From IMG/VR virus record IMGVR_UViG_3300020182_000042, positions 1 to 56,440 of that record: 56,440 nt of DNA; one strand, 5' to 3'. Below the pieces are notes generated by a model, which saw only the letters and a list, made by a program, of their open reading frames with translations, was not told the origin of the DNA and did not search any database. Positions 1 through 41,973 of the stretch are shown in pieces. The position numbers and the translations under genes are program-made. Numbering within the stretch: the stretch's first letter is position 1; the number at the start of each line of letters is the position of its first letter. Source of the stretch: a virus.

Positions 1-1589
1 GCCCGGCAGTCGGCGCAGCAGATGCGGCAGGCGGAGCAGCAGATGCGGCAGGCGGAGCAGCAGATGCGGCAGGCGGAGCAGCAGATGCGGCAGGCGGAGC
101 AGCAGATGCGGCAGGCGGAGCAGCCGGTGCAGCAGCAGACGCTGGATCTGCAATAAACATTGAAGATATACCTATGAAAGGAAATGGCAGGTTTGACGAT
201 CTGTCTGATGCGTTTACTTCATTAAGTTCAGATCAACAGGCAGTATTGTATGCTGATGAAATGGGATTAATGCCAAGCCCAGAGTTTGCACAGGGTTTAA
301 TTAATAACGATATTTTGCCAACAGCAACGGGTGGTGAAATACTTAATGTAATGAAACAAAACAGTGTAAATCCATTGGAGTATTACAAAGAATTAGAAGC
401 AGTTGGTAAAATTGACGCCAATATATATACTAAAATTAGACAAAGTCTCGACAGTCTTAAGGCGGCAGGTAAATTAGATAATGATTATATGTGGGCAGAA
501 AGCATAGATGTTGATAAACATAATGCATTGTATGAAACTGCTAAACTAAAATATATGTCTGGCATGCTACTTACAGAAACAGAACAACAAGTTTTAAATG
601 AAGGCCCGTTAGATGCTATTAAGAAAGGCGCCGCTAAAGCTGCAAGCGCAGTTGGTGGTGCAGTAGCAAAAGGTGCTGCCAAAGTTGCACAGGGCGCGAA
701 GTCTGCAGGCCGTGAACTTGGACAGCAAGTAACTGCTAAAAAATTAAACAGTTTATGGAAAAATGCAGGTGCTCCAACAGATGCTCCTAGCGTTTCTAGT
801 ATTTTAGCAAAAGCAGGTTTAGATAGCCAAGGCATATCAGCAGTTAGCACAGCCTCAAAAGTTGAGTTGCCAGCACCAGCAGCAACGCCAGCAGCAGCAA
901 CGCCAGCAGCAGCAACGCCAGCAGCAGCAACGCCAGCAGCAGCAACGCCAGCAGCAGGACAAGCAGCACCAGCAGGACAAGCAGCAACAGCAGAGCCTAA
1001 GAAGCAAGGCGCCATAAGTAAAATAGGTAAAGCAATCGGTGGTATGGCTAAAGGAGCTGTAGCAGGCGCTAAAGGAGCAGCACCAGCAGGACAAGCTGCA
1101 CCAGCAGGACAAGCAGCACCAGCAGGACAAGCAGCACCAGCAGGACAAGCAGCACCAGCAGGACAAGCAGCACCAGCAGGACAAGCTGCACCAGCAGGAC
1201 AAGCAGCAGGATTAAAAGGACGTATGCAAGGTGATCTCGACGATATGACCAAAGCACGAGCAGCCGCCGGATTAGACAATGAACCTGGACAAAAATCAGC
1301 CAGAGGAGCAGCACCAGATGCTAAAGGGGTTGCACAAGTTAAACCTAAAGCAGCACCTAAAGCAAAATCAGCAGGACCACAAAGTAGTGCAGATTTACCC
1401 AGAGGAACGTCATTTACTATTCCACAAAGTGGAGGCACTACTAAAGCATATCGTTGGGAAGGCGGAATGTGGAGTGAATTATCTCCTGGGGGCAAATGGC
1501 AAACAGGAAAAATTAAAAATGATTTAGCATTTAAGTTATACTTAGGTTCTAAAAAGAATGCAGCAGCAGATGCTAAGGCAATAGGCTGA
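1..1589 (+). CDS. Ala-rich tandem-repeat protein, 5'-partial (probable virion/head protein)
   Basis: The reading frame is open from position 3 to the stop at 1587-1589, so the gene enters from the left edge and its true start is outside the window; the ATG at 174 is only an internal Met. The visible part has five 7-residue repeats (AADAAGG type), a more ordinary acidic/helical segment (about nt 174-840), five TPAAA repeats, seven AAPAGQ repeats, then a short ordered C-terminus rich in Gly, Trp and Lys. Low-complexity Ala/Pro/Gly linkers joining small folded parts suit a structural or internal head protein, and the next gene follows by a TGATG overlap, so the two are co-transcribed. I do not recognise a family. 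The function is an inference from context only. Confidence 0.8.
   Translation, partial: PAVGAADAAGGAADAAGGAADAAGGAADAAGGAADAAGGAAGAAADAGSAINIEDIPMKGNGRFDDLSDAFTSLSSDQQAVLYADEMGLMPSPEFAQGLINNDILPTATGGEILNVMKQNSVNPLEYYKELEAVGKIDANIYTKIRQSLDSLKAAGKLDNDYMWAESIDVDKHNALYETAKLKYMSGMLLTETEQQVLNEGPLDAIKKGAAKAASAVGGAVAKGAAKVAQGAKSAGRELGQQVTAKKLNSLWKNAGAPTDAPSVSSILAKAGLDSQGISAVSTASKVELPAPAATPAAATPAAATPAAATPAAATPAAGQAAPAGQAATAEPKKQGAISKIGKAIGGMAKGAVAGAKGAAPAGQAAPAGQAAPAGQAAPAGQAAPAGQAAPAGQAAPAGQAAGLKGRMQGDLDDMTKARAAAGLDNEPGQKSARGAAPDAKGVAQVKPKAAPKAKSAGPQSSADLPRGTSFTIPQSGGTTKAYRWEGGMWSELSPGGKWQTGKIKNDLAFKLYLGSKKNAAADAKAIG
15..119 (+). repeat. 21-bp tandem repeat, 5 copies
   Basis: Five identical 21-bp units, each read in frame as seven residues (Ala-Ala-Asp-Ala-Ala-Gly-Gly). 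The DNA copies show no difference from one another, which points to recent expansion by slippage or recombination. Confidence 0.95.
885..956 (+). repeat. 15-bp tandem repeat, 5 copies
   Basis: Five copies of a 15-bp unit encoding Thr-Pro-Ala-Ala-Ala, the last copy diverging at its final codon. It forms a Pro/Ala linker inside the partial left-end gene. Confidence 0.95.
1077..1202 (+). repeat. 18-bp tandem repeat, 7 copies
   Basis: Seven copies of an 18-bp unit encoding Ala-Ala-Pro-Ala-Gly-Gln. Copies differ only in occasional synonymous changes (gca/gct). With the two other arrays this makes three independent tandem arrays in one gene. Confidence 0.95.
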
Positions 1590-2302
1590 TGAGATTATAC
1601 GAGGTATATCAAAATATTCGTAAACCCATAATGGAAGGCGGCAATGTATTTTCTGATGCTGTGCAGTTTGATCATTCAAACATAGACAGCATACTAGCAA
1701 CAGTTAATAAGTACATGCAACCTACCGGTGCTAAACTAATTCCAATTGGATCAGGCGCTACACCTACAGCAGGCAAAAAGTCTGGTGACTTAGATGTAAT
1801 TGTAGACCAAGGCACTATGAGCGAATATTTTCAAACAGATAAGCCCAAAGAAATTAAACAAAAAATACAAGGCTTGTTTGATGCAGCAGGGTTTGATACC
1901 AAAATGATAGGCATTAATGTGCATGTACGTGTACCACTAGAGCAAGGCAGTGCACAAGTAGACATTATGCTTGTGCCAGATGCAGAGAATATTTCCAAGT
2001 TTCATTTACATGATATACCAAAAGATTCTCCTTACAAAGGTAAACACAAGCAGATCGCAATGAGCAAGCTGGCTAATGCTAGCGGCATGATGTGGAGTGG
2101 ATTTCAGGGGCTATTTGCCAGAGATGATGCAGGAAAAAAAGCAGAATTAATTAGTTCAAACTTAGATGAGATTGCAAAAGCATTAATAGGACCACAAGCA
2201 ACTGCTAAAGACTTAGGCAGTGTGGAAAGCATATTGGCAGCGTTAGACCCACAACGTGCTGATCAATTAAAAGCAGAACTTGAAGCGGACCCTGCAGCAT
2301 AA
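1589..2302 (+). CDS. Pol-beta-superfamily nucleotidyltransferase with a capsid-targeting-like leader
   Basis: Product of 237 residues. Residues about 52-75 carry the pol-beta nucleotidyltransferase signature: GSG, then after a short loop GDLDVIVD with the paired catalytic Asp, and a third acidic residue in AQVDIMLV near residue 126. Enzymes of this fold transfer a nucleotide to a protein, RNA or small molecule; the substrate cannot be told here. The N-terminus MRLYEVYQNIRKPIME followed by GG looks like a prohead-targeting leader with an I-x-E cleavage site, so the enzyme may be packaged in the head. It starts by overlap with the preceding stop and ends by overlap with the next start (TAATGG), so it sits in a tight late operon. 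Confidence 0.75.
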   Translation: MRLYEVYQNIRKPIMEGGNVFSDAVQFDHSNIDSILATVNKYMQPTGAKLIPIGSGATPTAGKKSGDLDVIVDQGTMSEYFQTDKPKEIKQKIQGLFDAAGFDTKMIGINVHVRVPLEQGSAQVDIMLVPDAENISKFHLHDIPKDSPYKGKHKQIAMSKLANASGMMWSGFQGLFARDDAGKKAELISSNLDEIAKALIGPQATAKDLGSVESILAALDPQRADQLKAELEADPAA

Positions 2303-3051
2303 TGGAATTAACCTTAATAGATCAAGAGCTTTCAGAATCTAAACTATACAGACATAGTCGTAAGTTTGGTGCATTAACGGGCGAAGAAATTGCTAATTTA
2401 GTTTATTTGCAAACAATGAGCGTTTATATGCTAAAAATGCAGCAAGATACAGATCATTTAGCTAAAGGATACGCTAAACATACTACTCAGTACGGCACTT
2501 ATGCATTATTTAGAAGTCATGCAACCGACTTGTATACACTTTGCTATGCTGTATTGCATCCTGATAGCGATAGAATTGAGCTAAAAAATACAATAAGTAG
2601 TAAAAAGTTTCTGAGCAGTTGTAAATTTGCTAGTAAAGAACATATTACGTTTTTACGACAAATAGCTGACGGCAGTTTGCAAGATAGTAGATTAAACACT
2701 TACATGTTTCGATTAGAGTCGCAACTAAAAATATCTAACGGCAGGTACAAACAATGGCGTCGATATATTGTTAATTGGCCTAATGTAACCAAGAAAGCAC
2801 AAGATAAAATTAAAAGAGCAATGCTAATGGAAATGGCTAGAATGGGCAGCGGCACAGTTAAAGCATCCGAATTATTTCCTATAATACGTAAATCCGTTAG
2901 CGGCACTCCTAAAAGAAACCAGTTAGACCACCCTTCTACAGCAAGTAGTGTAGCTGGCACAAGTGCTGGTGCGTCGGTAAGAAGATACACGGCAAGTAAG
3001 TTATTGGGGATTAACAACATTGCAGATTATTGGTCAGGAAATAAAAAATGA
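2302..3051 (+). CDS. Conserved phage protein of unknown function
   Basis: Product of 249 residues, not recognised. It is basic in the second half, with a Ser/Thr/Ala-rich stretch around residues 205-225. The N-terminus contains MELTLIDQELSE, which again ends in L-x-E near residue 12 as in the neighbouring leader-bearing proteins. Translation is coupled: it starts on the last base of the previous stop codon and its end overlaps the next start. Probably a virion or head-assembly protein by context. Confidence 0.7.
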   Translation: MELTLIDQELSESKLYRHSRKFGALTGEEIANLVYLQTMSVYMLKMQQDTDHLAKGYAKHTTQYGTYALFRSHATDLYTLCYAVLHPDSDRIELKNTISSKKFLSSCKFASKEHITFLRQIADGSLQDSRLNTYMFRLESQLKISNGRYKQWRRYIVNWPNVTKKAQDKIKRAMLMEMARMGSGTVKASELFPIIRKSVSGTPKRNQLDHPSTASSVAGTSAGASVRRYTASKLLGINNIADYWSGNKK

Positions 3052-3518
3052 AAATTAATGAAATAGTAGTAGCAGAACAAATAAGAACATGGCAAGACAT
3101 GGAACAAGAGATAATCCAGGATATTACACTAAAAACTGGAGATAGACCAGCACATTTAATGAAAATTAACACGCAGAAGGCAGCACAAGATGCTTTTGCT
3201 CTTTATTCCCAGGGCAAACCACAAAAAGATGCAATCTCTTCTGCGCTAGAAGCACAGGGTGTAACTAACAAAAAAATTCCTAAACATAAGGAAGAGCCTG
3301 CTACTACTCCTATAGTTCAGCCGCCCAAGATAAAAAAAGCAAGCAACCCTGAGAAAGCCCAACGCAACAAAGCACCAGTAAAGAAGTCTACACGCGGTAC
3401 TACAGATTTTGACCAAATGATCAAAAAAGTACGTAAAAAAGGAAAAGAGTTAACTGATCCAGTAACAATACCTTTTAACCGAGGTAGGGAACTAGCTAAT
3501 AGGTTACTACAATTTTAA
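3048..3518 (+). CDS. Small basic protein with capsid-targeting-like leader
   Basis: Product of 156 residues beginning MKINEIVVAE, very close in pattern to the T4 internal-protein leader (MKTYQEFIAE). The middle is Lys/Pro-rich (about residues 75-125) and the whole protein is basic, as expected of DNA-associated internal head proteins. No enzyme motif seen. It overlaps the preceding gene by 4 bp and is the last gene before a fresh late promoter. Confidence 0.7.
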   Translation: MKINEIVVAEQIRTWQDMEQEIIQDITLKTGDRPAHLMKINTQKAAQDAFALYSQGKPQKDAISSALEAQGVTNKKIPKHKEEPATTPIVQPPKIKKASNPEKAQRNKAPVKKSTRGTTDFDQMIKKVRKKGKELTDPVTIPFNRGRELANRLLQF

Positions 3519-5633: not shown

Positions 5634-5872
5634 TGGCAGACAAACAGACTAAAACAAGTACACAAAGATATGTTGAAAACAATAATATGGAAGCACATAT
5701 TATTGCTGATATGTTACGTATAGAAGGGATCACTACTGAGTTACGAGAATTTAAAGATGATACAAAACAAAGATTAAATAAATTAGAGGGTTGGATAGTA
5801 ACTATAGTAGGAGTTACTGTTACTACATTAATTGCAACTGTAGGATCATTACTCTTTAGGATAATTGGATGA
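5633..5872 (+). CDS. Small membrane protein, XhlA/holin-like
   Basis: Product of 79 residues. A charged helical N-terminal two-thirds (residues 1-52, heptad-like I/L spacing around 28-52) is followed by one hydrophobic segment at about 53-76 and a very short tail. That layout resembles XhlA-type haemolysin/holin accessory proteins. A tail-anchored virion protein is the alternative. Overlaps the neighbouring genes at both ends. Confidence 0.55.
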   Translation: MADKQTKTSTQRYVENNNMEAHIIADMLRIEGITTELREFKDDTKQRLNKLEGWIVTIVGVTVTTLIATVGSLLFRIIG

Positions 5873-6330
5873 AAATAGAACAAATAATTAGTGAAAAGAA
5901 ACCAACAGACATGAAGTGTTGGGACGGATATAAAAAACAAGGCACTAAACCAGGTACCGGCAAAAACAAAGGTAAGAGAGTCAATAACTGTGTACCCGAA
6001 GAAGTATCTATTGATGATGACAATGCATTCTTTGAAGAGTTCGGTTGGGTTGAGGATAACCTAGAAGAAGCAGAATATCAAGGACGCAAAGTCAAACTTA
6101 ACAAGCCCATGCAGGGCGATGTTAAAAAATTCAAAGTGTATGTAAAAGATCCTAAAACTGGCAATGTCAAGAAAGTAAACTTTGGGCACGGTGGTAGCAG
6201 TGTTAAAGGCAAAGCTATGCGAATACGCAAGAGCAATCCAAAAGCACGTAAGAGCTTTAGAGCAAGACATAACTGTGATAACCCAGGACCTAAAACAAAG
6301 GCTAGATATTGGTCATGTAGGAAATGGTAA
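5869..6330 (+). CDS. Basic head-associated protein with targeting-like leader
   Basis: Product of 153 residues starting MKIEQIISE, then KKP: a leader of the capsid-targeting type with an I-x-E site. Two basic segments, each with Cys (residues about 15-45, WDGYKKQGTKPGTGK; and 110-153, SFRARHNCDNPG), flank an acidic middle. The C-terminal pattern with Cys, His and many Arg/Lys is common in marine T4-like phage structural proteins. Probably DNA-binding inside the head; not experimentally known. Confidence 0.65.
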   Translation: MKIEQIISEKKPTDMKCWDGYKKQGTKPGTGKNKGKRVNNCVPEEVSIDDDNAFFEEFGWVEDNLEEAEYQGRKVKLNKPMQGDVKKFKVYVKDPKTGNVKKVNFGHGGSSVKGKAMRIRKSNPKARKSFRARHNCDNPGPKTKARYWSCRKW

Positions 6331-6331
6331 T

Positions 6332-6616
6332 ATGAGATTAGATGAGTTGGGAGACGATATCACAGAAGCCAGAATGGTATGGCGTAAAAGTGGTAATAAA
6401 ATAAAACGTGGAGTACGATGTACAAGCGGTAGGCGCAAAGGTCGTGTTGTAAGTACGGCAACTCAATGTGCTGCGCCAATAGATATGAAAAAGAGGATGA
6501 CGCTAAAGAAAACAAAAGCAAAATTTGGTAAAAGATTAGCTAGGAAAGCACGTAGAACAAAAAGAGTAAACCCAATCAGTAAAAGACTAAAAAGTTTAAA
6601 TCCGAGACGTAGATAA
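6332..6616 (+). CDS. Very basic small head protein with targeting-like leader
   Basis: Product of 94 residues from the ATG at 6332, chosen because an upstream extension would overlap the previous gene by 150 bp. It begins MRLDELGDDITE then AR, giving an I-x-E leader. The rest is dense in Lys/Arg (KKTKAKFGKRLARKARRTKR), with two Cys. Looks like a DNA-condensing internal head protein. Overlaps the next start (TAATG). Confidence 0.65.
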   Translation: MRLDELGDDITEARMVWRKSGNKIKRGVRCTSGRRKGRVVSTATQCAAPIDMKKRMTLKKTKAKFGKRLARKARRTKRVNPISKRLKSLNPRRR

Positions 6617-9600
6617 TGAAAATAAGTAGCTTTGATAAATTATTTGAATATCCTGATTATAATCAAACAGGCACTCAAGCTAAAGCAACTGCTGCAACTA
6701 AAAGTGTAACTGCTCCTGGCAAAAAACCTTCGAACGTTAAACCACCAAGTCCCACTACATCAGGTGTTCCAACTGATGATAAACAAGAGCCTGCAAAGCC
6801 AGTTATAGCAAAAGCCAAAGAGCTGGAAAAGGATTCAGAATTCCCCAGTGAAAAAGGCAACGTAGTAAAAGTTGTGTCACCTATTGGACAAGGATTAAAC
6901 AAAGCAGGTGTAGTAGTACAAGATCAAAAGACAAAAGAATTTTACACGTTAGACCCTGAAGATGATATTGCATTACCACAAGTGGGGGTAGAAGAATCAG
7001 GATCTTTAGATAATATTATTGATAAGAATAAAGAAAGATTTGCCAAGAAAATAGTACGCAAGCAAAACAAGCTCAAGCAATTAATACGTGCTGCTAGATT
7101 CGGTGACACCTACGGCGAAGGGCTATACGAAATCAATTTTAACAACAAAGAATTAATACAGAATGTTTTAGACGCCCCTATACAATGCGGCTTTGAGGCT
7201 GAAACAGTGTGGAACAATATTGAGTCCACTCCAGGCATAGATTTAAACTATGCTGGTTGGTCAGATATTGAAGGATATGTAGAAGAATACGAAGGTGAAC
7301 GTGGTGTAGACAGATTAGTAACAACTTACAAAGAATGGTTAATGGAAGAAAAAGTATTTGATATCCAAGGGGATATGATTGCTTCTGAAGCAAAGGATAG
7401 ATTAGAAGACGAAAACTATATGAATGAGTTTGTTGATTCTGAAATAAACCAAGACGATGTGGAAGATTATAAAGAGGATCTTAAAAGAAATGATCCAGAA
7501 GATTACAAAGAAAAAGCCACAGGTGAGTTTGCCTATGATGAAAGTGCTTGGGGCAGAGAATATGCTGAGACAGTCTATAGTACAGATGACATAATCGAAT
7601 GGCACGAAGAACAAATGCGTGACAATGGCGAATACTGGGACGAAGCCTGGGATGACGCCATGAATCATTTTGATATGGATTATTGGGCAAATGAGGCTTA
7701 TAGTGGTTGGGGTGATGCTTTATATGATCATGACATCTTCTTACCAGGAGTTGGCGAAGAAGAATATGGCTTAGACGAAGTAGCTAGCCAAATGGAAGAC
7801 TGGGCCAGCAACAACAGTCAGAGCAACGATGTACGTCCAGGTGGCTATCACAGTGGAAAACAAGTAGATAATGAGTACTGGCGTGTAGAAGAAGACAGCA
7901 GCATTGAAGGTGACGGCGCTGGTGCAGAAATTATTAGCCCTGTTTATGACACTCCCAGAGAAATGATTCAAGAGATGAACAGCTTGTTTGAATTTCTAAA
8001 AGAGAATAATGTAGACACAAATAGATCAACAGGGTTACATATTACCATGAGCATGTCAGGAGAACCTGCAAGCAAAATGGATCCATTAAAATTAGCAATA
8101 TTACTCAATGACAAGTATGTGTTGAGCCAATTTGGTAGAATGGGAAATTCTTATACTAAAAGCCAATTAGAAAGATTAGAACATACTGTGAGGCGAATGA
8201 ACACAGATGCGGAAAGCAACAAAGACTATGAAGCAAGTTGGGACGAAGTAAAAACTATTCTAAGTCGCAGTATCGATACAAACAAGTTTAATGCTATTAA
8301 CTATAAGGATGCTACAAATGCCGATGGTAATAATTTAGTTGAATTTCGTATCGCAGGTGGCAGTGATTATCTTAGCAAAATGCCAGAAGTTACTAAATCA
8401 GTTCTTCGTTATGCTGCTACACTACAAGCATCACACGATCCAGAACTGTACAAAAAAGATTTTGCAAAAGCATTATATAAACTGGTATCTAAAACATCTG
8501 ATCCTCTTACACCCACTCAGCGTGACGCAACAATTAATTTGCCTGAAACTCCTTTTGTACAAGGTGCCAGAGAAGTATTAAAGAAAACAGGTGACCAACT
8601 AGATGCACTTGAAGAATTGCACAAAGCATATCAACACCTGGAAGCTGGTGATATGCCGCAAGCGCAAACCTCCTTTACTAACTTCATGCGACAAATGTTG
8701 TACAGTGTGTATTATAAATTAGATAATTTTAAAACCTCTACTGGTATTGTGCGTGGTATGCGTGACGGACTCAAGACGTTTGGTTTAGATAGTAATACAT
8801 TGATGCAAAAACTGCAAAATATAAACGTACAAACCAAATTGCAATATTCTGGTGCAAATTTTGATCCAAATAAACTCAGCGGTGAGATGGCAAACACGCT
8901 GAGTAAACTGTTAATGAAAAAAGTCGCTTCACCTGAACCACATCAAGTATTAAAAGTACCTGCAACAAGTGTTGTGTATATCCGCAGAGGATCGTATGCA
9001 GGTCAACGAGATATCAAATCAGCTGTCATAGGTATTAACGATCTAAAAGTAATCGAACCTAAGGATCACAGAGAAGTTTCTCGAGCAGGAGCGGAATTAT
9101 CTTATCCTAGTGTAACTCCTGAGGAAGCAGCAGAACATCAAAAGGTTATTGATGCCTTTAATGCCAAATACGGAATAAAATATTCCCATCCAGGTACTGG
9201 TACGGATCCAAATGGTTGGAATCTTGCTAACAGCACTGATCCAGTGTGGAAAGAAATTGCAGCAAATAACGGAGTAATGGTGGTGAGAGAAAGCAAAGAC
9301 TTTAACAGTTTAAGTTTACAAGAGCAATTAAAAATTGTTAGTAAGATTAGTTTAACAGAATTAAACAAAGTGTGGTATAAAAAAAGAAGTGTAGAGCACA
9401 TTCCTGAAGCTGATCAAGTTAAAGCAACCGAGCGTAAGCCTAAACTAATAAAACCAAACACTGGCCATGAAAGTCCCCATCCTTATGATGGACGATTAGT
9501 TGGTGAGACTGAAACACTTAATCCTCCTAGCATAGAAGTAGGTGACGAAGTTAAAGTAGGCAAGTTTAAAAACAGCAAAGCCACAGTAAAAGGTTTTACT

Positions 9601-11472
9601 AAAGATCAACATGGACAACCTGTGTTAAAAACTAACAAAGGCGACAAACCATTGTACAAGCCACGTGTTAGCAAACTGGAACCTAAAAACGTAAAAGAAG
9701 GTGCTGTACCTGAAACAAATCTAGTGGATGAATACAGACAAATAATGAGCAAACCACTGTTAGGTAGCGATATCAAAGGACAGATGTATGCATATCAGAT
9801 AGTTCCTGATCCTAGCATGATTAAAGAGTTCCGTAATCAGATCGCACATGGTGGTAGAGATGTGGATTTACGTATGGTGTTTAAAGGATTTGCACAATCA
9901 CTGCTACATCCTGATAATAAAAAGAAAGTAGGATTAGATGAAAGTTTATTGCAAGAAGCACCAGCAGAATTACTTGCAGATTTTGAAGACACTCTCACTA
10001 ATTACATTATGTTAAAAACACAAGTAGCAAGAGCTTGTAAAAATCCTAAAACTGCGCCCAAGTGTGATGTACTAAGCACAGAGATGGCCAACTTTGAACA
10101 AAAGTTAAGCAAGATGAGAAATGAAATTGCTAAGTTTACTGCTAAAGCAAGAGACGTTAGTAAAGCAAAAAAAGCAGGCGGACAGGAAACCCTAACCGCA
10201 GTTAGAGAATATAAAAATAAAGTTGATTACTATCTTAATAAGTTAAGCGATAAAATTTCTGGAGGTTTTGAATATATTGTGATGACCGATTCAGGAATAG
10301 AAGAACTAGGACAAACTAGTCAAGCAGCAAAAAGAAAACAACAATCAGAAATAGCAAGCGTTGACCAAATAAAACAAGCACTATTAAAATATTTTGACGA
10401 TCCGGAATTATTTAATGTAAATCCAGATTTTAACAGGAAAGAAGTATTAGCATTCCTACAAGCGGCCGCCGAAGGGAAAATTCTTTCCATGGAAGAAATT
10501 ATGAAAATTGGTACTGATCCTGATTTACCAGAAACAATGACCTTTACTGATATTGTAGCAAAAGCAGCAGAAAATAATAAAAGTAATAAGTTTATACAAT
10601 TTTATAACAAGTTAGTGGATGACGGTATTATGTATCAAACCGTAGCAAACACTACCAGTGGTAATGTTGGTCCTGGAGAACTTGCATTATTGTTATTAGC
10701 TGCTCCTGCCACAAAAGGTGTTCGAGGAGATTTGAACGTGGGCGGTAGAGAAGTAGAAATAAAATCAGGAAGTTATGGTAAAGGCGGCACTGCTGCCGGA
10801 GGCAAATTTAACAGTGACTATATAGTTAAAGGCAATCTAGCAGGAAACAATTTGCGCAAAGGCCTAACCAGTTTCTTTAAAGAGAAATTAGGCAAAAGTT
10901 TTGACATTGAATTTAAAAAATGGATGGAAAAACAAGAAAAGCCAAACACTATTAGTTCTAAATATACTCGTTATAACTTAATACCTAAAAGAATGAACAT
11001 GCCAAGCATAAGTAACGGTTCTATTGCAGAAGTATATAATCCTTTCTTTGCACACATGGGGTTAAACCGAGATCAATATAGAACAGTAGCACGATTGCTA
11101 AGCCAGGCAACTTTTTCAGATGAAGCTAAAAACAAAGGCGGGCACCTAAATGATGTATTTTCTTCTTTAGGCAACGAATTTGATACTAAGAACTGGTACA
11201 GGAAACAAATAGAACAAGTAGGCACTGCTAGTGGTTTAGATGGCGAAAAACTTAAAAAACTAATTTTAGCACTACAGTTTGCTAGTTACCAATTAAACAA
11301 GGGACATGACCAAATACTCTACATAAACAAGACAAATCAAAAGTTAACTAATGTAACAAGTGCAAAAGACCTAATTGACAAATACGAAAAAGGCTTAGTT
11401 GTTACCGCAAAAGACATTAACTTAACAGACACACAACAAACAGCAGCTCATAGCGTAACTGCTGGATTGTAA
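6616..11472 (+). CDS. Giant multidomain head-protein candidate: amidoligase-like plus PD-(D/E)XK-like segments
   Basis: Product of 1618 residues, by far the largest here. It begins MKISSFDKLFE, a targeting-type leader with L-x-E. Residues about 190-600 show the amidoligase (COOH-NH2 ligase) pattern: GFEAE near 192, a Trp-containing strand with DSSIEGDGAGAE before EIISP near 437, GLHITMS near 472, and VEFRIAGG near 574, with a very acidic insert at 220-400. Around residues 960-1015 a small basic KOW-like stretch occurs. Near 1365-1385, GDLNVGGREVEIKSG has the Asp...Glu-x-Lys spacing of PD-(D/E)XK nucleases. The C-terminal 200 residues are helical and unassigned. Such a protein could be packaged and injected to act on host protein or DNA. 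The domain calls are from motifs alone and are moderate. Confidence 0.65.
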   Translation: MKISSFDKLFEYPDYNQTGTQAKATAATKSVTAPGKKPSNVKPPSPTTSGVPTDDKQEPAKPVIAKAKELEKDSEFPSEKGNVVKVVSPIGQGLNKAGVVVQDQKTKEFYTLDPEDDIALPQVGVEESGSLDNIIDKNKERFAKKIVRKQNKLKQLIRAARFGDTYGEGLYEINFNNKELIQNVLDAPIQCGFEAETVWNNIESTPGIDLNYAGWSDIEGYVEEYEGERGVDRLVTTYKEWLMEEKVFDIQGDMIASEAKDRLEDENYMNEFVDSEINQDDVEDYKEDLKRNDPEDYKEKATGEFAYDESAWGREYAETVYSTDDIIEWHEEQMRDNGEYWDEAWDDAMNHFDMDYWANEAYSGWGDALYDHDIFLPGVGEEEYGLDEVASQMEDWASNNSQSNDVRPGGYHSGKQVDNEYWRVEEDSSIEGDGAGAEIISPVYDTPREMIQEMNSLFEFLKENNVDTNRSTGLHITMSMSGEPASKMDPLKLAILLNDKYVLSQFGRMGNSYTKSQLERLEHTVRRMNTDAESNKDYEASWDEVKTILSRSIDTNKFNAINYKDATNADGNNLVEFRIAGGSDYLSKMPEVTKSVLRYAATLQASHDPELYKKDFAKALYKLVSKTSDPLTPTQRDATINLPETPFVQGAREVLKKTGDQLDALEELHKAYQHLEAGDMPQAQTSFTNFMRQMLYSVYYKLDNFKTSTGIVRGMRDGLKTFGLDSNTLMQKLQNINVQTKLQYSGANFDPNKLSGEMANTLSKLLMKKVASPEPHQVLKVPATSVVYIRRGSYAGQRDIKSAVIGINDLKVIEPKDHREVSRAGAELSYPSVTPEEAAEHQKVIDAFNAKYGIKYSHPGTGTDPNGWNLANSTDPVWKEIAANNGVMVVRESKDFNSLSLQEQLKIVSKISLTELNKVWYKKRSVEHIPEADQVKATERKPKLIKPNTGHESPHPYDGRLVGETETLNPPSIEVGDEVKVGKFKNSKATVKGFTKDQHGQPVLKTNKGDKPLYKPRVSKLEPKNVKEGAVPETNLVDEYRQIMSKPLLGSDIKGQMYAYQIVPDPSMIKEFRNQIAHGGRDVDLRMVFKGFAQSLLHPDNKKKVGLDESLLQEAPAELLADFEDTLTNYIMLKTQVARACKNPKTAPKCDVLSTEMANFEQKLSKMRNEIAKFTAKARDVSKAKKAGGQETLTAVREYKNKVDYYLNKLSDKISGGFEYIVMTDSGIEELGQTSQAAKRKQQSEIASVDQIKQALLKYFDDPELFNVNPDFNRKEVLAFLQAAAEGKILSMEEIMKIGTDPDLPETMTFTDIVAKAAENNKSNKFIQFYNKLVDDGIMYQTVANTTSGNVGPGELALLLLAAPATKGVRGDLNVGGREVEIKSGSYGKGGTAAGGKFNSDYIVKGNLAGNNLRKGLTSFFKEKLGKSFDIEFKKWMEKQEKPNTISSKYTRYNLIPKRMNMPSISNGSIAEVYNPFFAHMGLNRDQYRTVARLLSQATFSDEAKNKGGHLNDVFSSLGNEFDTKNWYRKQIEQVGTASGLDGEKLKKLILALQFASYQLNKGHDQILYINKTNQKLTNVTSAKDLIDKYEKGLVVTAKDINLTDTQQTAAHSVTAGL

Positions 11473-11477: not shown

Positions 11478-12065
11478 ATGAAGATTTTTGAAGTAGTAAA
11501 CAAAAATTTTTACCACGGTAGTTATGATAAACTAGAACCAGGCACCGTTCTAACTCCTAAAGGAAAAGATTACGAAGCAGCATGGGGTGGCACTGGTTTT
11601 TATGGTGCACTGGAAAAGCACCGACCACCAGAACAGTTAGCACATAAAGAAGGTGTATTTATGGTGGCCAATCCAGATGATGTTGACAACGCCGGCGGCG
11701 CTACAGATTATATTTACGCTGTAGTACCTATGGGAGAGCCACAACGGCATGACATGAATTGGGGTACCGCTATAAGCAGTTTGTTGGATAATGGTGCTAG
11801 ACTAAATGATTCAGAAATAAAATTTGCTGCTGATCAGTACTGGTCAGGAAAACCTCATCCAGACGGCAACAGTGTGTGGGAATTCATTGCACCTAGGGCA
11901 AAAATTGTTAGTGAATTAGCAGAAGGTAACAAAGCACAAAAAGGTATCCCTGCAAACGCTACATTGTCAAAACTAGACAAAATACGTAGTACAACAAAAG
12001 ATCCAGCCAAGCGCAAGCGAGCACATTGGCTTGCTAATATGCGCCGCGGTAGTAATAAGAAATAA
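11478..12065 (+). CDS. Arr-like ADP-ribosyltransferase candidate
   Basis: Product of 195 residues. After a leader-like start (MKIFEVVNK) comes FYHGSYDKLEPGTVLTPKG (residues 12-30), which matches the YHGT...L.pGd.l..g opening of rifampin ADP-ribosyltransferase and related NAD-using folds. Later GVFMVANPDDVDNAGGATDYIYAVVP (about 55-80) resembles the strand pair with the vY.t and YIYeV.P motifs. The C-terminus is basic. T4 packages and injects the ADP-ribosyltransferase Alt to modify host RNA polymerase; this could be a functional analogue, but catalytic assignment is unproven. It follows the giant gene by 5 bp. Confidence 0.5.
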   Translation: MKIFEVVNKNFYHGSYDKLEPGTVLTPKGKDYEAAWGGTGFYGALEKHRPPEQLAHKEGVFMVANPDDVDNAGGATDYIYAVVPMGEPQRHDMNWGTAISSLLDNGARLNDSEIKFAADQYWSGKPHPDGNSVWEFIAPRAKIVSELAEGNKAQKGIPANATLSKLDKIRSTTKDPAKRKRAHWLANMRRGSNKK

Positions 12066-14032: not shown

Positions 14033-14239
14033 ATGAAAATATCTGAAATCCTCAGTGAAACAACGTCAGCTGGTGCTATTGCCACAGTTGCTCAACCCTT
14101 GGGCAAAATTGTCAAGCGTCCTAATCCCAGTGTGTTTCCTAAAAAGAAAAAGAAAGCTGAAGAAGGCAAAAGCCCTCACAAAAAAGGCACTAAAAAATAT
14201 AACAAGCATATGGCTGCTATACACGCAGGTATGGGTTAA
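14033..14239 (+). CDS. Small basic protein with capsid-targeting-like leader
   Basis: Product of 68 residues starting MKISEILSE then TTSAG, the closest match here to the T4 leader plus a cleavable L-x-E. The mature part is very basic (KKKKKAEEGKSPHKKGTKKYNK). Probably an internal head protein that binds DNA. It appears to be translated from a leaderless late mRNA and its stop overlaps the next start (TAATG). Confidence 0.7.
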   Translation: MKISEILSETTSAGAIATVAQPLGKIVKRPNPSVFPKKKKKAEEGKSPHKKGTKKYNKHMAAIHAGMG

Positions 14240-14895: not shown

Positions 14896-16185
14896 ATGTT
14901 TTTAAAAGAATTTAATAACCAGCCTACAACAAAGATAAACAAACTTAGCACTTTATTATCAAAACAATTTGATATTAGTTTACAAGTTTTTCCATCAAAG
15001 GTAAAGTTAGAAAAACTGCACGAAGCAGCAAATCAAGCATTAATTAAGATACGTGGAAGTTATACAAAATTCCATTTAGAACCTGACTATGCAAAGTTTT
15101 TAGGTTTGCGTGATCTTACTGATACCATGTTATCAGAAGGTATGTATGCAGAATCACCAGCATACGAATCAATGTGCAATGAAGTTAAAGATCGTGTACG
15201 TACTTTAATGGATTCGGGTTGTACTAACGAAGAAGCTGTTTCACAATGCATGAACGAGTATCGTAAAGATGATCGTTTTTGCTACGAAGATGCTGTTATA
15301 CTGCCTGTTGTTGAAATGGCATGCGAAGAATACATGAATAGCTGTTCAGAAAGCAAAGAAGAAATTGAAGGCGCATTAATGGCAGAAGAAACAGATACTG
15401 ATCTTAACAGTTCATTATTTGCTGCGCTTGCTAATGAAGTCGGTGTTGCTACAACTGAACAAGGTTGTTTACGGGCAATTGAAGAAAAGTTAGGGTTGTT
15501 TTCACAAGTCAGCGGTAAGAGCCGTGACAGTGTTGTAGGTTTTCTTAATGGTCTAGATGAAGATGCATTACCAGGTGGTATCCAGATGTTTGGCCGTAAA
15601 GTTGCAGAACAGAACAAGTTTACAGGCGCACGTAAAGATGCTATTGCACACGGCAAAAAAGAATTTGAAGTAGACGGTAAGAAATATGCTGTAACTGGCG
15701 ATACCGAAGACGAAAAGAAACAAGCAAAAGAAAGCATGTTTGATGATTTAATTAACGATATCCTTAATGAAGAAGTTGATGTTGAGCAAGCCGAAGTTGT
15801 TATGGCTGTTCGTGCACTAGCAGATGATATCCAAGATCAAATTGAGCGATTAGGCAGAATGATGAACGAAGACGTTCCTGCTATTGCAGATCAAATGAGA
15901 GCAGAAATGGGCGCATCACAAGCACAACAGTGGGCTGACGCTACTACTGGTACATTAAATGGTTATATGGAAGCAGCAAAAGGCGCTAAGGCAGCAATGG
16001 ATTCTCAAGTAGCTGGTTTAAGCGGCGAAGAGCAAGTTGGTGGTTTAGGCGATACTGGAATGGAAGATCCGGCACTTGGCGGCGATATGGGTATGGATGC
16101 TGAGATGCCTGCTGAAGAGCCAATAGATGACGTACCAGCAGCAGCTGGCCCAGAAGAAGAACCATTAGGCAGAGCTGAAATATAA
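14896..16185 (+). CDS. Head structural/core protein
   Basis: Product of 429 residues beginning MFLKEFNN. It is acidic and helical throughout, with Met/Gly/Pro-rich acidic C-terminus (about 375-429). The segment MFDDLINDILNEEVDVEQAEVVMAVRALADDIQDQIERLGRM near 275-315 is a block I associate with a structural protein conserved in T4-like cyanophages. It could be a scaffold-like or internal protein of the prohead. Coupled by TAATG overlap to the next leader-bearing gene. Confidence 0.65.
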   Translation: MFLKEFNNQPTTKINKLSTLLSKQFDISLQVFPSKVKLEKLHEAANQALIKIRGSYTKFHLEPDYAKFLGLRDLTDTMLSEGMYAESPAYESMCNEVKDRVRTLMDSGCTNEEAVSQCMNEYRKDDRFCYEDAVILPVVEMACEEYMNSCSESKEEIEGALMAEETDTDLNSSLFAALANEVGVATTEQGCLRAIEEKLGLFSQVSGKSRDSVVGFLNGLDEDALPGGIQMFGRKVAEQNKFTGARKDAIAHGKKEFEVDGKKYAVTGDTEDEKKQAKESMFDDLINDILNEEVDVEQAEVVMAVRALADDIQDQIERLGRMMNEDVPAIADQMRAEMGASQAQQWADATTGTLNGYMEAAKGAKAAMDSQVAGLSGEEQVGGLGDTGMEDPALGGDMGMDAEMPAEEPIDDVPAAAGPEEEPLGRAEI

Positions 16186-16523
16186 TGTTAATCAGGGATA
16201 TTCTGTTAACAGAGTCCTATATAGATGACTTAGTAGATGCTGTTAAAGGTCTACTAGTTGCATTTATGAGCGGCGGTGCAAAACAAATCCCCACAACTAA
16301 ATTTAAAAGAATGCTCGCAAAGCAAGGATATGTAGTTTCAACAGACGAAGTAATAGCAGCAGTTGATCAATCAGGTTTTGCAAGCAGCGTAGACAGCGTA
16401 AACATAGTTCCTAAATCAGAATTAGGCGCAGACACAAGCACAGAAGCAGAGCCCACAGTAGATGTGGCAGACATGGCAGGAGATCAAGCCTTGTCAGATA
16501 TTAATGCGGAGTTACCACAATAA
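16185..16523 (+). CDS. Small head protein with targeting-like leader
   Basis: Product of 112 residues beginning MLIRDILLTE then SY, a leader with L-x-E. The middle shows a short basic helix-turn-like region (TKFKRMLAKQGYVVSTDEVIAAV), the tail is acidic. Sits between two structural genes with overlapping starts and stops. Function not known. Confidence 0.65.
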   Translation: MLIRDILLTESYIDDLVDAVKGLLVAFMSGGAKQIPTTKFKRMLAKQGYVVSTDEVIAAVDQSGFASSVDSVNIVPKSELGADTSTEAEPTVDVADMAGDQALSDINAELPQ

Positions 16524-32759: not shown

Positions 32760-32871
32760 ATCAAGCACTTACAACTACAAAAAACCCCCTTTAAAATCAA
32801 GTACTTACAGCTTGACATATCTGCCCTTTTTGCTATAATAAACGAGTACATTAAATAAAGAGAGCAGAAAA
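32760..32871 (+). promoter_or_regulatory. Duplicated early promoter module, copy B
   Basis: Second copy of the 112-bp module: ACTTACARC elements at 32767 and 32803, TTGACA at 32812, TATAAT at 32834, then the same leader. Identical to copy A over the last 75 bp or so. Confidence 0.9.
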
Positions 32872-36205: not shown

Positions 36206-37552
36206 TTATAATCCTGCTAGTGCTCTTAATTCAGCCATTGCAGCAGCATAAGCATTATCAGTAGTTTCCTCAATAGCTTCTTCTACTTCTTCTTCTGAAT
36301 CATCTTCGTCTTCGTCAGCTTTCTTGCCATTCTTTTTGTCTAAGTAATCTTTTAAACCTTTAGGCATTTCGCCTTCTTCAACAGCTTCTGTTTTGCCCAT
36401 TCCGCCACAGTGTTCGCAATCTGGACCACAGCCACAACCTTCAGCAGTTATTTCATTACCGCAACAAGAGCAGGTGCCGCCTTCGCCTTCTTGTACACCA
36501 TAGTCGTCTCTGATGTTAGAAAGATCTAACCCTTCTTCTTCTACTTCATCTTCATCTTCTACTGGCGGAACATACTCTGTTTTTCTGCCTTTAACACGAT
36601 CATCTACTGGATCAGCTCTCTCGCCTTTGTTATATGCGGCTACTGTTGCAGTAACAGCATTGCTTAATGCTGCTGGCTCTGCTCTAGACTTTTTAATGAA
36701 ACCTACTAAATCTTCTTGGGACGAGATCTCGCCAGTAGCAAGTCTATCGCCTAATTGTGCCATTGCATTGGAAACAGCATCGTCCTGTTGCCCCATAGCC
36801 ATGTCCATCATAAGACGTCCTATTCCTGCTAATTTCTTTGCTGTATCGTCCAAGTCATGCTGTGGTTTAAATTCAACAGGAGCACCTTCTTGTACTTCAG
36901 GCTCCAGTCCAGCTAGTTGACGTAATGTTTGCATATCCATTGTAGATTCCTCTAAACTATCTTCTTTATTGTATTTATCTTCTTGTGCAGGTTTTGGGTG
37001 ATGTGGAAGCAAGTATTCTGCAACAACATCAAAAAAGTCTTTACCTTGTATTTTAAAGTCTGCAGGTACTCCGGCAGCCCTTTCAAACGCATCTCTATCA
37101 TCTGCTAGCACAGCGTTTCGTACATCTGTAGCTGAACTGAGACGTGGAGTTGGTTTCTGAGTAATAGATTCAAAATCGTAATATCCATGTTTGCCTTCCT
37201 CACCATTATACTTTTCCAGTGTTTTGGTTAACCAATCTTCGTCTGTGTATACTGTGAGATTTACTTTGCCGTGTTGTGCAAACACTTTAGTAGCAAGGGT
37301 AAACAAGTTTGTTTCTGGCACTATGTGGCTACCTACTTCTGGCCATAGTGCCTCCATGGCTGCAATTTTGATATCGTATGGCAGCGGATCTTTCTTACCC
37401 TGAGTACTTTGGTTAGTGCCTACGTACCAGTGGTCGTTTTCTGATGCCATTTCCCACGCAGCCTTGTGGCCACGATGAGGAGGATTGAAGCGACCGAACA
37501 TAACACCAACGGTATCTCCTGCTGCTTCTGTTAGATAATCTTTGAATTTCAT
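36206..37552 (-). CDS. HxGH nucleotidylyltransferase fused to acidic structural domain; internal start likely
   Basis: Product of 448 residues. It begins MKFKDYLTE then AAG, a targeting-type leader with L-x-E. Residues about 15-190 form a nucleotidylyltransferase: VMFGRFNPPHRGHKAAWE (HxGH-type HRGH), then ...SSATDVRNAV near 158 resembling the ISSTxIR motif of NMN/phosphopantetheine adenylyltransferases. Residues 205-448 are acidic, with a Cys-rich knot (CSCCGN...CGCGPDCEHCGG) and two LRxLAGL motifs. Met205 (36940) has its own GAGGAA ribosome site and upstream GATAAATA, so the second half is probably also made alone as a head protein. Confidence 0.75.
   Translation of the reverse strand: MKFKDYLTEAAGDTVGVMFGRFNPPHRGHKAAWEMASENDHWYVGTNQSTQGKKDPLPYDIKIAAMEALWPEVGSHIVPETNLFTLATKVFAQHGKVNLTVYTDEDWLTKTLEKYNGEEGKHGYYDFESITQKPTPRLSSATDVRNAVLADDRDAFERAAGVPADFKIQGKDFFDVVAEYLLPHHPKPAQEDKYNKEDSLEESTMDMQTLRQLAGLEPEVQEGAPVEFKPQHDLDDTAKKLAGIGRLMMDMAMGQQDDAVSNAMAQLGDRLATGEISSQEDLVGFIKKSRAEPAALSNAVTATVAAYNKGERADPVDDRVKGRKTEYVPPVEDEDEVEEEGLDLSNIRDDYGVQEGEGGTCSCCGNEITAEGCGCGPDCEHCGGMGKTEAVEEGEMPKGLKDYLDKKNGKKADEDEDDSEEEVEEAIEETTDNAYAAAMAELRALAGL
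36972..36979 (-). promoter_or_regulatory. Internal late promoter GATAAATAC, minus strand
   Basis: GATAAATAC inside the preceding feature, 31 nt before an in-frame ATG at 36940 that is served by AGAGGAA. Both signals are aligned for an internal protein. Confidence 0.55.
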
Positions 37553-39801: not shown

Positions 39802-40950
39802 TTATGGTGTCCACTTGTGCCTAGGAACAAATTTTACATTGCCTAGCTCTTTGCTACCATCTGCGTAACGAACATGACCTTCACCGTTGGTGTCCCAAAT
39901 CTCACCACGCTCGCCTTCTAATTGATCTATGATGCTGTTCTTAGCACCTTGTATATCTTTAACCAGTGTAAAGATTTCATCTATAACATTTCCGTTAGCC
40001 TGATCTAACTCTGCTATTTTTTCTTGTTTTGGTTCGCTGACTTTGCTAGTCTTTAACCAGTTATAAAAATGCTGACTACCTAGCTGATCTAGTTGTTTTG
40101 CTTTGGCTGTTTGGTTAACGTAACGATATAAGATTTCTTTAAGATCGCCTAAACCTTTCATACCTGCTAGGAAGCTGTCTATTCTGCCGCCGTGTGAACT
40201 AGCATACTGCTCTGCTTTGTCCAGTTTAGCAGTGTCAACCTTAACAGGTTTAGTGTTATATACTGGACCCAACACAATAACTTCAGGATTACTGTTGAAC
40301 ATTGTAAAATCACTTATTGGTTGCTGGGCTGCATCTGGTGCACCAAACTCTGGAAAACTGGCATGTCCTACTAACATTATATCCGCTTGGCTGATCTTTT
40401 TACCAAGCTCCGAATCTGCTCTTACATGATAGCATGTGTCACTTTTGGGATTTGGACAAAAGTTGTACACACCGTTCTCATCCAGTTTAGGACGTTCAAA
40501 GAACAATCCATCTGCATACACAAACCCCACAAAGTCACTGGGTGTTGCTTTATCTAATGCTGGATACCAACTAGCAAACTGTTTTGCAAATGCATCACGT
40601 TTGGCTTTCTCTTCTGGAGTGCCAGGCTTGCCGCTCTGATTTGCTATAAAATCTTCTAATTCTTCAGGGCTAGTAGTTTTGGCCCCTCTTAACCAGCCAT
40701 TATGACCAGTTAACACAAGAGGGCCACCTTTTTGCTCTCTACCCCAGTATACTTGTGGAGCACCGTCCCACTTCATACGTATACTTTCTGCTCCTTGTTG
40801 CGTGGCTAATTCACGCAAATGTGCTAATGCTTCTTGCACACCTTTGGTACCATAAAAGAATACCAAGTCCTCTAAATGATTAAAGGCCCTACCTAATTTT
40901 TTTAGTTCGAATAAGCGTCTGGTTTCACTTATAAATTCGTTAGCTCTCAT
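39802..40950 (-). CDS. Head-associated protein with KxDG motif (covalent nucleotidyltransferase-like)
   Basis: Product of 382 residues starting MRANEFISE then TRR, a targeting-type leader. IRMKWDGAPQVYWGRE near 58-73 contains K-W-D-G, the spacing of the lysine-adenylation motif of ATP-dependent ligases, and DFVGFVYADGLFFERP near 145-160 could be the motif III-like strand. I associate this with a marine-phage family (DUF6267-like). Adenylation activity is not demonstrated. Directly follows the preceding minus gene without a gap. Possible packaged nucleic-acid ligase or a degenerate relative. Confidence 0.6.
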   Translation of the reverse strand: MRANEFISETRRLFELKKLGRAFNHLEDLVFFYGTKGVQEALAHLRELATQQGAESIRMKWDGAPQVYWGREQKGGPLVLTGHNGWLRGAKTTSPEELEDFIANQSGKPGTPEEKAKRDAFAKQFASWYPALDKATPSDFVGFVYADGLFFERPKLDENGVYNFCPNPKSDTCYHVRADSELGKKISQADIMLVGHASFPEFGAPDAAQQPISDFTMFNSNPEVIVLGPVYNTKPVKVDTAKLDKAEQYASSHGGRIDSFLAGMKGLGDLKEILYRYVNQTAKAKQLDQLGSQHFYNWLKTSKVSEPKQEKIAELDQANGNVIDEIFTLVKDIQGAKNSIIDQLEGERGEIWDTNGEGHVRYADGSKELGNVKFVPRHKWTP

Positions 40951-41973
40951 TTACTTACCACGTAGATATTTGTTACTTAACTTCATAATCATAGCGGAAT
41001 TTTCGTCCGCATAAAAGTCTAAGTTGTCTAAATGTTTAGCAGCATATTCATCACCGTTGGCTGCGGCTACTGCCATTGCCTTACCTAACGGGGTATTATC
41101 AGCGCTCATCATTTCACCAGCACCCATAAGCGCAGCAAGAACACCTAGCGTTGCAATACCTTGCTTAACAGCACCTTCTGCGAGACTATCAATGTGTTTG
41201 ATAGCTGATTTCATCGCAGCCTTTTCACCTGCATGGGTTCCGCAATCTTTGCCATCAACTGAGCAGTGCCAGCTTGGCTTCATGCTGTCACCACTTTTAG
41301 TTAAAGTTACTTTATGCTTACCACGAAGTGTATATGTTGTAGATGGATTACGAGGGGTTATACCCAGTCTTTTATTATCTGCATCTGTTGCTTCACCGAT
41401 AGTGTCAATAACTAAACGTTCTCCGTTTCCCTGAATAGTCTTACCAATAGCATTTAATACTTTTTCAAGTTCTTCCCTACTTCTTTTTTCACCGCCTAAC
41501 CAAACATCCAACGCTCTGTCTACCATAGTTTGCAAGTTGTTTTCACCTCTAACAACCAAAGGCGCTTCGTCCATGCTTATCTTTGGACCACGTTTTTTCA
41601 TTTCTTTCTTTTTGTCTGCATGTGTTTTAGGCTTGTTGAATTTTTCCATATTCTTAGCAACAGGATTACCACGACCGTATGGCTTAGGTTTTTGTGGAAT
41701 ACCTGCTTCATCGAGTTCGACTGACTCTGAAGCAGGCTTACCTGTGATGCTCACTTCCCATTTTTTTCCAGTGCTAGCACTTTTCTCAGAAGCCCATCTT
41801 TTTAACTGATTGTAGTGTTGCTGCTCTGCACGATCATCGGCATTACGTCCTTTACCCTTGAACACCTTCCAGGGGTTACCGTTAATATAAATTTGGAAAT
41901 TATTAGGTGGCTCGTTACGTAATTCGTGTCTGAGCTCGTCCTTTTTAAAATCACTTACTTCGTTAATATTCAT
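40951..41973 (-). CDS. Head structural protein with leader-like start
   Basis: Product of 340 residues from ATG 41973 (MNINEVSDF...), preferred to the TTG at 41994 because AGGA lies 10 nt upstream of the ATG. Contains GKGRNADDRAEQQHYNQLKRWA...GKKWEVSITGKPASE (about 30-75), a block I associate with T4-like marine phage head proteins, and a Lys-rich region (110-135). C-terminal Ala-rich helix near 275-300 could be membrane- or core-associated. First gene of the minus late block. Confidence 0.65.
   Translation of the reverse strand: MNINEVSDFKKDELRHELRNEPPNNFQIYINGNPWKVFKGKGRNADDRAEQQHYNQLKRWASEKSASTGKKWEVSITGKPASESVELDEAGIPQKPKPYGRGNPVAKNMEKFNKPKTHADKKKEMKKRGPKISMDEAPLVVRGENNLQTMVDRALDVWLGGEKRSREELEKVLNAIGKTIQGNGERLVIDTIGEATDADNKRLGITPRNPSTTYTLRGKHKVTLTKSGDSMKPSWHCSVDGKDCGTHAGEKAAMKSAIKHIDSLAEGAVKQGIATLGVLAALMGAGEMMSADNTPLGKAMAVAAANGDEYAAKHLDNLDFYADENSAMIMKLSNKYLRGK

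Follow-up and report, generated by a model that had tools for sequence, protein, structure and literature searches.

Candidate prohead-targeting leaders on unrelated proteins, enzymes included, in an IMG/VR virus record

The 56,440-base IMG/VR virus record IMGVR_UViG_3300020182_000042, from a marine phage, analysed here over its whole length and called the window, encodes nine proteins from different, unrelated families that share a short leader at their extreme N-terminus. They probably act as prohead-targeting propeptides that load enzymes into the head, in a variant form of the capsid targeting sequence (CTS) of phage T4. Homologues of the leader-bearing enzymes have been reported in purified virions of related phages, which suggests by analogy that such enzymes are packaged. 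A preliminary description of the window had proposed a packaged and injected arsenal of enzymes behind these leaders, an interpretation that is partly supported as a whole.

Leader-bearing proteins of the window

The nine N-termini quoted in the preliminary description are all present at the starts that it gave. Its estimate of about a dozen is on the high side: nine members are convincing, one further candidate (2302) was added here, and the proteins starting at 11478, 41973 (minus) and 36204 (minus) are doubtful or different. The proteins concerned are as follows.

1589..2302, plus strand: pol-beta-type nucleotidyltransferase-like protein; leader MRLYEVYQNIRKPIME at 1589-1636, proposed cut before GGNVF
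2302..3051, plus strand: basic protein (net +17), tenth candidate; leader MELTLIDQELSE at 2302-2337, then S
3048..3518, plus strand: basic protein (net +12); leader MKINEIVVAE at 3048-3077
5869..6330, plus strand: basic protein with a C-terminal phrog_7595 domain; leader MKIEQIISE at 5869-5895
6332..6616, plus strand: very basic protein (net +27 of 94 residues); leader MRLDELGDDITE at 6332-6367, proposed cut before ARMVWR
6616..11472, plus strand: protein of 1618 residues, weak Amidoligase_2 match (420-579); leader MKISSFDKLFE at 6616-6648
11478..12065, plus strand: protein of 195 residues starting MKIFEVVNKN; leader-like, no cut-type E, doubtful member
14033..14239, plus strand: small basic protein; leader MKISEILSE at 14033-14059, then TTSAG
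16185..16523, plus strand: acidic protein of 112 residues (net -10); leader MLIRDILLTE at 16185-16214, then S
36206..37552, minus strand: HxGH nucleotidylyltransferase (NMNAT/cytidylyltransferase-like), net -46; leader MKFKDYLTE at 37526-37552
39802..40950, minus strand: DUF6267 protein with a KWDG motif; leader MRANEFISE (40924-40950), or until LFE at residue 15 (40906-40950)
40951..41973, minus strand: DUF7230-containing protein starting MNINEVSDFKK; weak leader, doubtful member

The leaders end in L/I-x-E in eight of the nine proteins and in V-x-E in one (3048). Strongly basic products are encoded at 3048, 5869, 6332 and 14033, in the same way as T4 internal proteins are strongly basic, and acidic ones at 36206 (minus) and 16185. 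The N-terminus of the protein starting at 36204 (minus), MNEIERLQQLAGIVE, follows a pattern unlike that of the leaders. The candidate at 2302 was a late find made by eye and stands outside all counts. The choice of start is weak at 6332, which is nested in a longer frame that has a TTG further upstream, at 14033, which has no recognisable ribosome-binding site, and at 37552 and 40950 (minus), for which the first gene caller favoured later starts.

Conservation of the leader in orthologues

In orthologous proteins, hydrophobic-x-E stays constant while leader length and the other residues drift, which is how a cleavable propeptide would be expected to look. The search for viral loci of the HxGH nucleotidylyltransferase yielded 44, of which 40 were read, some of them near-identical; L109-L111 (missed by the regular expression) and L006 (a fragment) were left out. 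Their starts are mostly of the MRLRQLFE-A type, and in an alignment of five of these enzymes the only invariant leader positions are M1, L7 and E9. Hydrophobic-x-E is present in 24 of 25 distinct leaders of this family and in 25 of 26 of DUF6267, values reached in 0/2000 shuffles each, the count accepting hydrophobic-x-E anywhere ahead of the domain and not just at the leader end. A scan of 43 loci showed the DUF6267 pattern in 34, and leaders such as MRYQELIE, MRYQDFRIVE, MRFLEFNQTLTE and MRFSEIIAETYTRRYVAE all precede the same (A)K-x-LGR-x-FNHL domain. The AlphaFold model of the DUF6267 protein, with pLDDT below 50 over residues 1-22 and most of the remainder folded, fits this picture.

In the pol-beta orthologues, [LI]xE stands directly ahead of GG and E16 is invariant in 7/7 aligned sequences; leaderless orthologues (six loci) begin at the proposed mature end, MGG[NKR]VF. 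Leaders were also observed in relatives of most other window proteins. Those of the 2302 protein start MEFQLINQELSE-A (contig G011, the closest large relative of the window), MEFLLLDQDLCE-S (L217) and MNFIKELQE-S (G018), and the homologue of the 5869 protein in phage C48C1 starts MKKFKQYIDE. In G011, the orthologue of the 6332 protein has the leader MKLEDINESQEMLFE (TTG start) and keeps ARMVWR after the proposed cut, that of the giant 6616 protein has MRLNEFSKEQVSE, with Y after E in both, and that of the 16185 protein has MLIRDIILAE-G, read from an upstream ATG that the gene caller initially passed over. The gene of G011 at the position equivalent to 3048 starts MKIRDIILE and has no BLAST similarity at 1e-4, and a partial homologue of the 40951 (minus) protein starts MKFKEILE-G in the same contig. 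The orthologue of the 14033 protein in contig G019 reads MKINDIIQE-TTSAG. In one orthologue (L138), the cut site lies 46 residues in.

Frequency of the leader against chance

Open reading frames (ORFs) were called by a purpose-written script, so that neither the gene totals nor every start agree with annotation. As a chance model, residues 2-20 were shuffled in every called protein with composition kept. A loose regular expression, which catches eight of the nine quoted leaders (not 1589) and two unlisted proteins, matches 10/82 window proteins against a shuffle mean of 2.70, a count reached in 1/500 shuffles. A tighter expression aligned on the cut-site E matches 4/82 against 0.19 expected, and the N-terminal half M[KR]-hydrophobic-x-[ED]-hydrophobic matches 5/81 against 0.14, both with 0/500 shuffles. 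As controls, five phages without the gp21 family (T7, lambda, P-SSP7, HTVC010P and CRP-3) gave 1/297 proteins with the tighter expression and 0/297 with an E-aligned profile.

The preliminary description had likened the leaders to those of T4 internal proteins. The part of this claim that stood is the hydrophobic-x-E, which is kept in orthologues and matches gp23 ends, but only four of the nine leaders (5869, 14033, 37552 minus and 40950 minus) have the spacing of T4 MKTYQEFIAE when aligned on E; the others differ from T4 in the distance between hydrophobic pair and cut. The hydrophobic residues at positions 4 and 7 of T4, counted from the start, are not found in the window leaders. The leaders were therefore filed as a variant and not as the T4 CTS proper: T4 spacing counted from the start was recovered in 0/82 proteins, and counted from E in 4/9 leaders. 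The first profile built from T4-type leaders was anchored on the start codon and recognised none of the window proteins; the two leader groups came together only when aligned on E. The profiles were trained on leaders from T4, Melnitz, C48C1 and P-SSM2, and for this reason counts in those phages are not independent tests; the window, the G-contigs, S-CREM2, S-SZBM1 and S-SCSM1 are independent of the training. KVP40 was searched for gp21 only.

Eight sister contigs were searched with a pattern derived from the nucleotidylyltransferase leaders, with 500 shuffles each. No shuffle reached the counts of G011 (6/157 proteins, mean 0.27), G012 (5/329, mean 0.47, one of the five matches being its own nucleotidylyltransferase) and G005 (2/23, mean 0.03). 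Few did so for G019 (3/203, mean 0.34; 4/500), G018 (3/208, mean 0.39; 6/500) and G015 (2/160, mean 0.29; 17/500), and no excess was found in G002 (1/76, mean 0.14; 67/500) and G003 (0/31, mean 0.08). This pattern has almost no matches in T4 or Kyanoviridae genomes, where leaders are one residue longer. T4-type leaders were found on unrelated proteins across complete Kyanoviridae genomes, for instance in Melnitz-2 on a RimK ATP-grasp protein (MTQKFSQFITE), a cytidylyltransferase-like protein (MKKFSEIIE) and a P-loop or zeta-like protein (MKTFAELQE).

Link to head proteolysis

In T4, gp21 cleaves following L/I-x-E, and in the CTS of internal protein IPIII residues 4 and 7 account for most of the targeting and residues 8 and 10 for most of the processing (PMC9026906). 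Changing E to D in the IPIII leader inhibits cleavage and leaves targeting unaffected (PMC9026906). A gp21-type protease (Peptidase_S77) was found in the sister contig G019 (175.7 kb), which holds a T4-type head block made of maturation protease, probable scaffold and major head protein; another sister contig, G002, carries families of phage DNA polymerase and clamp loader. The protease is present in 8/8 phages taken as T4-like, in 3/3 cyanophages with virion proteomes and in 0/5 controls.

The gp23 region aligned to the T4 cut ends in FLTE in T4, FLSE in Melnitz, YLSE in G019, FLSE in P-SSM2 and FLAE in S-SCSM1; S-CREM2 was left out of this alignment because its script-called ORF differs from the annotation. 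The gp23 propeptide end of G019, YLSE-TATAG, resembles both ILSE-TTSAG of the window 14033 protein and IIQE-TTSAG of its G019 orthologue. Similar starts are seen in T4 gp24 (MAKINELLRE), T4 gp22 (MLKEQLIAE) and the probable G019 scaffold (MLDALKTLFE).

Two side observations concern the head. The virion protein gp279 of S-SCSM1 (L188 6627-6836) is leaderless and ends in RTFKEFLEYIE, a leader-like C-terminal stretch. In addition, a motif LxxLAG[IL] occurs at the C-terminus of the window nucleotidylyltransferase (AELRALAGL), at that of the probable scaffold of G019 (DIRRLAGLS; L156 2357-3451) and close to the start of several small neighbours (IERLQQLAGIVE), for example window 35827-36204 (minus). 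A search for this motif, which could serve as a second docking signal for the prohead core, gave matches in the window, in sister contigs and within a tail-fibre repeat.

Leader-bearing proteins in cyanophage virions

Three cyanophages with published virion mass spectrometry were scored by an E-aligned profile trained without them, with a threshold score of 4. Pooled, six of nine leader-scoring proteins were detected in virions against 123/728 other proteins (p = 0.0014). The six are a nucleotidylyltransferase in each phage, an S-adenosylmethionine (SAM) lyase, a kinase-like protein and a small protein. Leaders of the NMNAT, SAM lyase and kinase-like proteins include MKNFSSFLTE, MKDFDSFLEE and MKRFDAFLTE. 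In S-CREM2 (PMC10665884), a score of at least 4 was reached by 4/28 detected proteins not labelled structural, 1/177 undetected proteins (p = 0.0013) and 0/24 detected structural proteins. These four, SAM hydrolase, kinase-like protein, cytidylyltransferase and ORF13, are scattered in the genome (ORFs 6, 13, 14 and 154 of 229); the SAM hydrolase matches Pfam S-AdoMet_lyase and the kinase match lies under Pfam cut-offs.

In S-SZBM1 (PMC9146016), 2/219 ORFs score at least 4: a cytidylyltransferase of 362 residues (MRFRQFIIE), which is in the virion list and was identified through its length and motif and not its locus tag, and a protein of 105 residues that is not listed. For S-SCSM1, the virion set used was the 47 proteins marked in the sequence record, and the paper gives 45 (PMC9602691). 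The 14-protein virion proteome of S-CREM1 (PMC9964418) stands outside the pooled count. Term searches of the available S-CREM2 and S-SCSM1 proteome texts gave no mention of a leader.

A conserved small protein, MKTFKQFMSE in S-SCSM1 (44215-44535) and MKSFKSFLSE-SVNISGDFNGNLY in S-SZBM1 (122311-122628), has the top leader score and is absent from the virion lists. Leader-like stretches of S-CREM2 ORF15 and ORF136 and of S-SCSM1 gp089 were seen by eye and are outside the counts, as is FASFMAE at residue 25 of an S-CREM2 virion protein labelled 'Cas9', which was not counted as Cas9 since the label has no Pfam support at E <= 0.01.

Identity of the putative cargo

That the leader sits on enzymes was borne out. 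The HxGH nucleotidylyltransferase of the window contains PPHRGH (the HxGH motif), matches phrog_395 and phrog_3041 at 2e-13 and 2e-15, scores 20.3 bits against Pfam CTP_transf_like, slightly below the cut-off of 21, and is 27-32 percent identical to three cyanophage virion enzymes over 157-172 columns.

The DUF6267 protein is possibly polynucleotide-ligase-like, as its motif and model suggest. K60-W-D-G is invariant in 18/18 sequences, and KxDG is what we take to be motif I of the covalent polynucleotide ligase superfamily. In a VIA comparison of its model, the 50 matches listed are nucleic-acid ligases or ligase-holding complexes, with Z of just 4.0-5.6, and Foldseek gave no match to PDB at E <= 0.001. 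The 1589 protein contains GSG...GDLD...VDIM, presumably the pol-beta nucleotidyltransferase pattern, which is the sole basis of its enzyme class; no supporting Pfam match was found.

The 6616 protein had been described as a giant amidoligase/nuclease, a label that was not confirmed: its one Pfam match, to Amidoligase_2, is sub-threshold (20.9 bits, cut-off 22), and no nuclease match was found. Its search in viral_contigs gave no relatives, and an Agrobacterium phage (two records) matched it over just part of its length; an orthologue was later located in G011. The 11478 protein has a homologue only on the other contig of the same virus and no PDB match; an Alt-like ADP-ribosyltransferase is not claimed for it, as that idea has a resemblance in motifs but neither an outside homologue nor a PDB match behind it.

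In window 5869-6330 the leader is joined directly to the basic phrog_7595 domain, which in Melnitz-2 (L020 14914-16866) is fused to the C-terminus of the leader-bearing cytidylyltransferase and elsewhere has other N-terminal partners. The minus-strand leader genes are flanked by a UvdE UV-endonuclease (42074-43129) and a glycosyl hydrolase of family 6 (34980-35834), both with strong Pfam matches.

Other features of the window

The window record is probably a fragment. A second contig (61 kb) holds the same virus, with 99.9 percent identity across the 21 kb compared. The genes downstream of window ORF 174-1589, which has AAPAGQ repeats, are the same as those after an ORF of 872 residues in L215; the latter starts MTSRTVLTE and ends at a junction shared with window 174-1589. 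The left end of the window seems to be cut or altered. Through the second contig, a 115-base direct repeat with 95.7 percent identity was seen at window 30747-30861 and 32758-32872.

Discussion

In the explanation that we favour, the amphipathic N-terminus, often with a basic residue 2 and with hydrophobic residues at 3 and 6, would dock the protein into the scaffold core during head building. A gp21-type protease would then cleave past hydrophobic-x-E and free the mature protein within the head, where DNA packaging would trap it. At infection, the cargo would exit with the DNA and act ahead of phage gene expression. The presumed cargo mixes basic DNA-binding-like proteins, an NMNAT-like nucleotidylyltransferase, a ligase-like KxDG protein and a pol-beta-type nucleotidyltransferase. 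We infer packaging in the window virus, and likewise targeting and cleavage; injection of the cargo and the roles of its enzymes are speculative. A role in rebuilding nicotinamide adenine dinucleotide (NAD), or in repairing RNA cut by host defences at infection, would be a guess.

Like the window leaders, the T4 CTS is a short N-terminal segment with a basic residue 2, a hydrophobic pair three apart and a hydrophobic-x-E end on unrelated carriers. Unlike it, the window leaders are often one residue shorter ahead of the first hydrophobic, the cut falls as late as residue 16, cleavage is presumed, and several enzyme classes form the cargo. A review proposed the CTS as a route for T4-like phages to take up various proteins (PMC9026906), and the signal was used to find many T-even ip genes (PMC12373910). 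T4 Alt, an ADP-ribosyltransferase, is likewise an enzyme packaged and ejected, with a short propeptide removed by gp21 and additional C-terminal processing (PMC9026906); no Alt homologue was identified among the window proteins searched, and the window enzymes belong to other families. The closest likeness in virions is that of the NMNAT/cytidylyltransferase-like proteins of S-SCSM1, S-CREM2 and S-SZBM1, which belong to the window nucleotidylyltransferase family and each carry a leader. The giant phages phiKZ and SPN3US package many ejection proteins processed after glutamate by gp21-like proteases, a likeness by description only. Among the titles of 15 open-licence PMC articles on 'capsid targeting sequence', no marine-phage description was found.

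Several observations weigh against this explanation. No gp21 was found in the 56-kb window or in ten contigs of relatives, possibly all fragments, and it is missing from 9/10 larger relative contigs, all maybe fragments too. The patterns were designed once the leaders were already known. The start-codon-anchored profile scores 0/82 window proteins, the E-aligned profile at score 4 finds 2/82 (3/500 shuffles), and 16.4 kb of the same virus right of the window gave 0/33 proteins. G003 lacks leaders apart from that of its nucleotidylyltransferase. The loose expression matches 10/297 proteins in the five gp21-less phages, P-SSP7 (4/56) and T7 (3/46) included. By profile, little excess was seen in the gp21-bearing HTVC008M, P-HM1 and immuto, with 0/189, 2/222 (25/500 shuffles) and 2/220 (43/500). 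The pol-beta leaders alone (6/7) are not significant (131/2000 shuffles). L144 has no leader on either enzyme, nucleotidylyltransferase or DUF6267; these two genes (L144 3928-6558) lie two genes away from one whose product begins like a GIY-YIG protein, and a joint loss is possible. As for the low pLDDT of the DUF6267 leader, no other stretch of that alignment is so poorly aligned, and this too depresses pLDDT. As to the virions, six of the 52 S-CREM2 N-termini were inspected by eye before scoring, S-SCSM1 alone (PMC9602691) gives 1/47 virion proteins (the NMNAT, MKSFLQFLKE) against 1/242 others (p = 0.30), the authors of the S-SCSM1 and S-CREM2 proteomes allow carry-over into the CsCl preparation (PMC9602691, PMC10665884), and NMNAT was reported in virions of S-CBWM1 too, which is termed a non-T4 phage.

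An unlikely alternative is that the segment is a docking signal only, carried by assembly factors of the scaffold, most of which would be expelled after cleavage, like T4 gp22 and gp67, with few reaching the host. The scaffold protein does start with a similar segment (MLKEQLIAE in T4, MLDALKTLFE in G019), and some leader proteins are acidic and not DNA-binding-like (36206 minus, net -46; 16185, net -10). Against this, mature CsCl-purified virions of related phages are reported to contain leader-bearing enzymes, and one would not expect an assembly factor to contain an enzyme domain whose catalytic motifs are conserved. Less probable still is that the enzymes sit on the tail or baseplate, or contaminate the preparations, and are detected in virions independently of the leader. 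The proteome authors allow for carry-over, and S-SCSM1 virion proteins without a profile-scoring leader adjoin the NMNAT gene, yet leader scores in S-CREM2 pick separated virion ORFs (6, 13, 14 and 154) among 229, with one undetected at the same score. Least probable of all is an N-terminus unrelated to the head, one that serves translation initiation or stability or that paralogous genes have kept from a common ancestor: short K/I/E motifs are common (loose-expression background 3-5 percent, somewhat exceeded in gp21-less T7 and P-SSP7, 54 and 34 of 500 shuffles) and some leaders share a near-identical MKI start, but composition-preserving shuffles fail to give the window counts, the domains behind the leaders are unrelated, hydrophobic-x-E is conserved while leader length varies, and the tighter patterns are almost missing from gp21-less phages.

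If the leaders are prohead-targeting propeptides, they bear on findings already in print. The virion proteomes of three cyanophages list NMNAT-like enzymes, to which one of them adds a SAM hydrolase and a kinase-like protein. For such enzymes, which two author groups could not class as cargo or contamination, a leader that can be read in the sequence would supply a mechanism. It would also allow head cargo, and with it the likely effectors of the first minutes of infection, to be listed for uncultured phages from sequence alone. A broader reading stands evenly balanced in our judgement: ocean phages of the T4 superfamily may mark their cargo by a code in two parts, a docking helix that has two hydrophobics three apart and a separable hydrophobic-x-E cut, behind which the head enzymes change (NAD-making, ligase-like, pol-beta, SAM lyase, kinase-like, and perhaps both ATP-grasp and nucleotidase). 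If so, head cargo would be predictable from sequence via the leader, and a ready-made repair and counter-defence kit would travel with the DNA.

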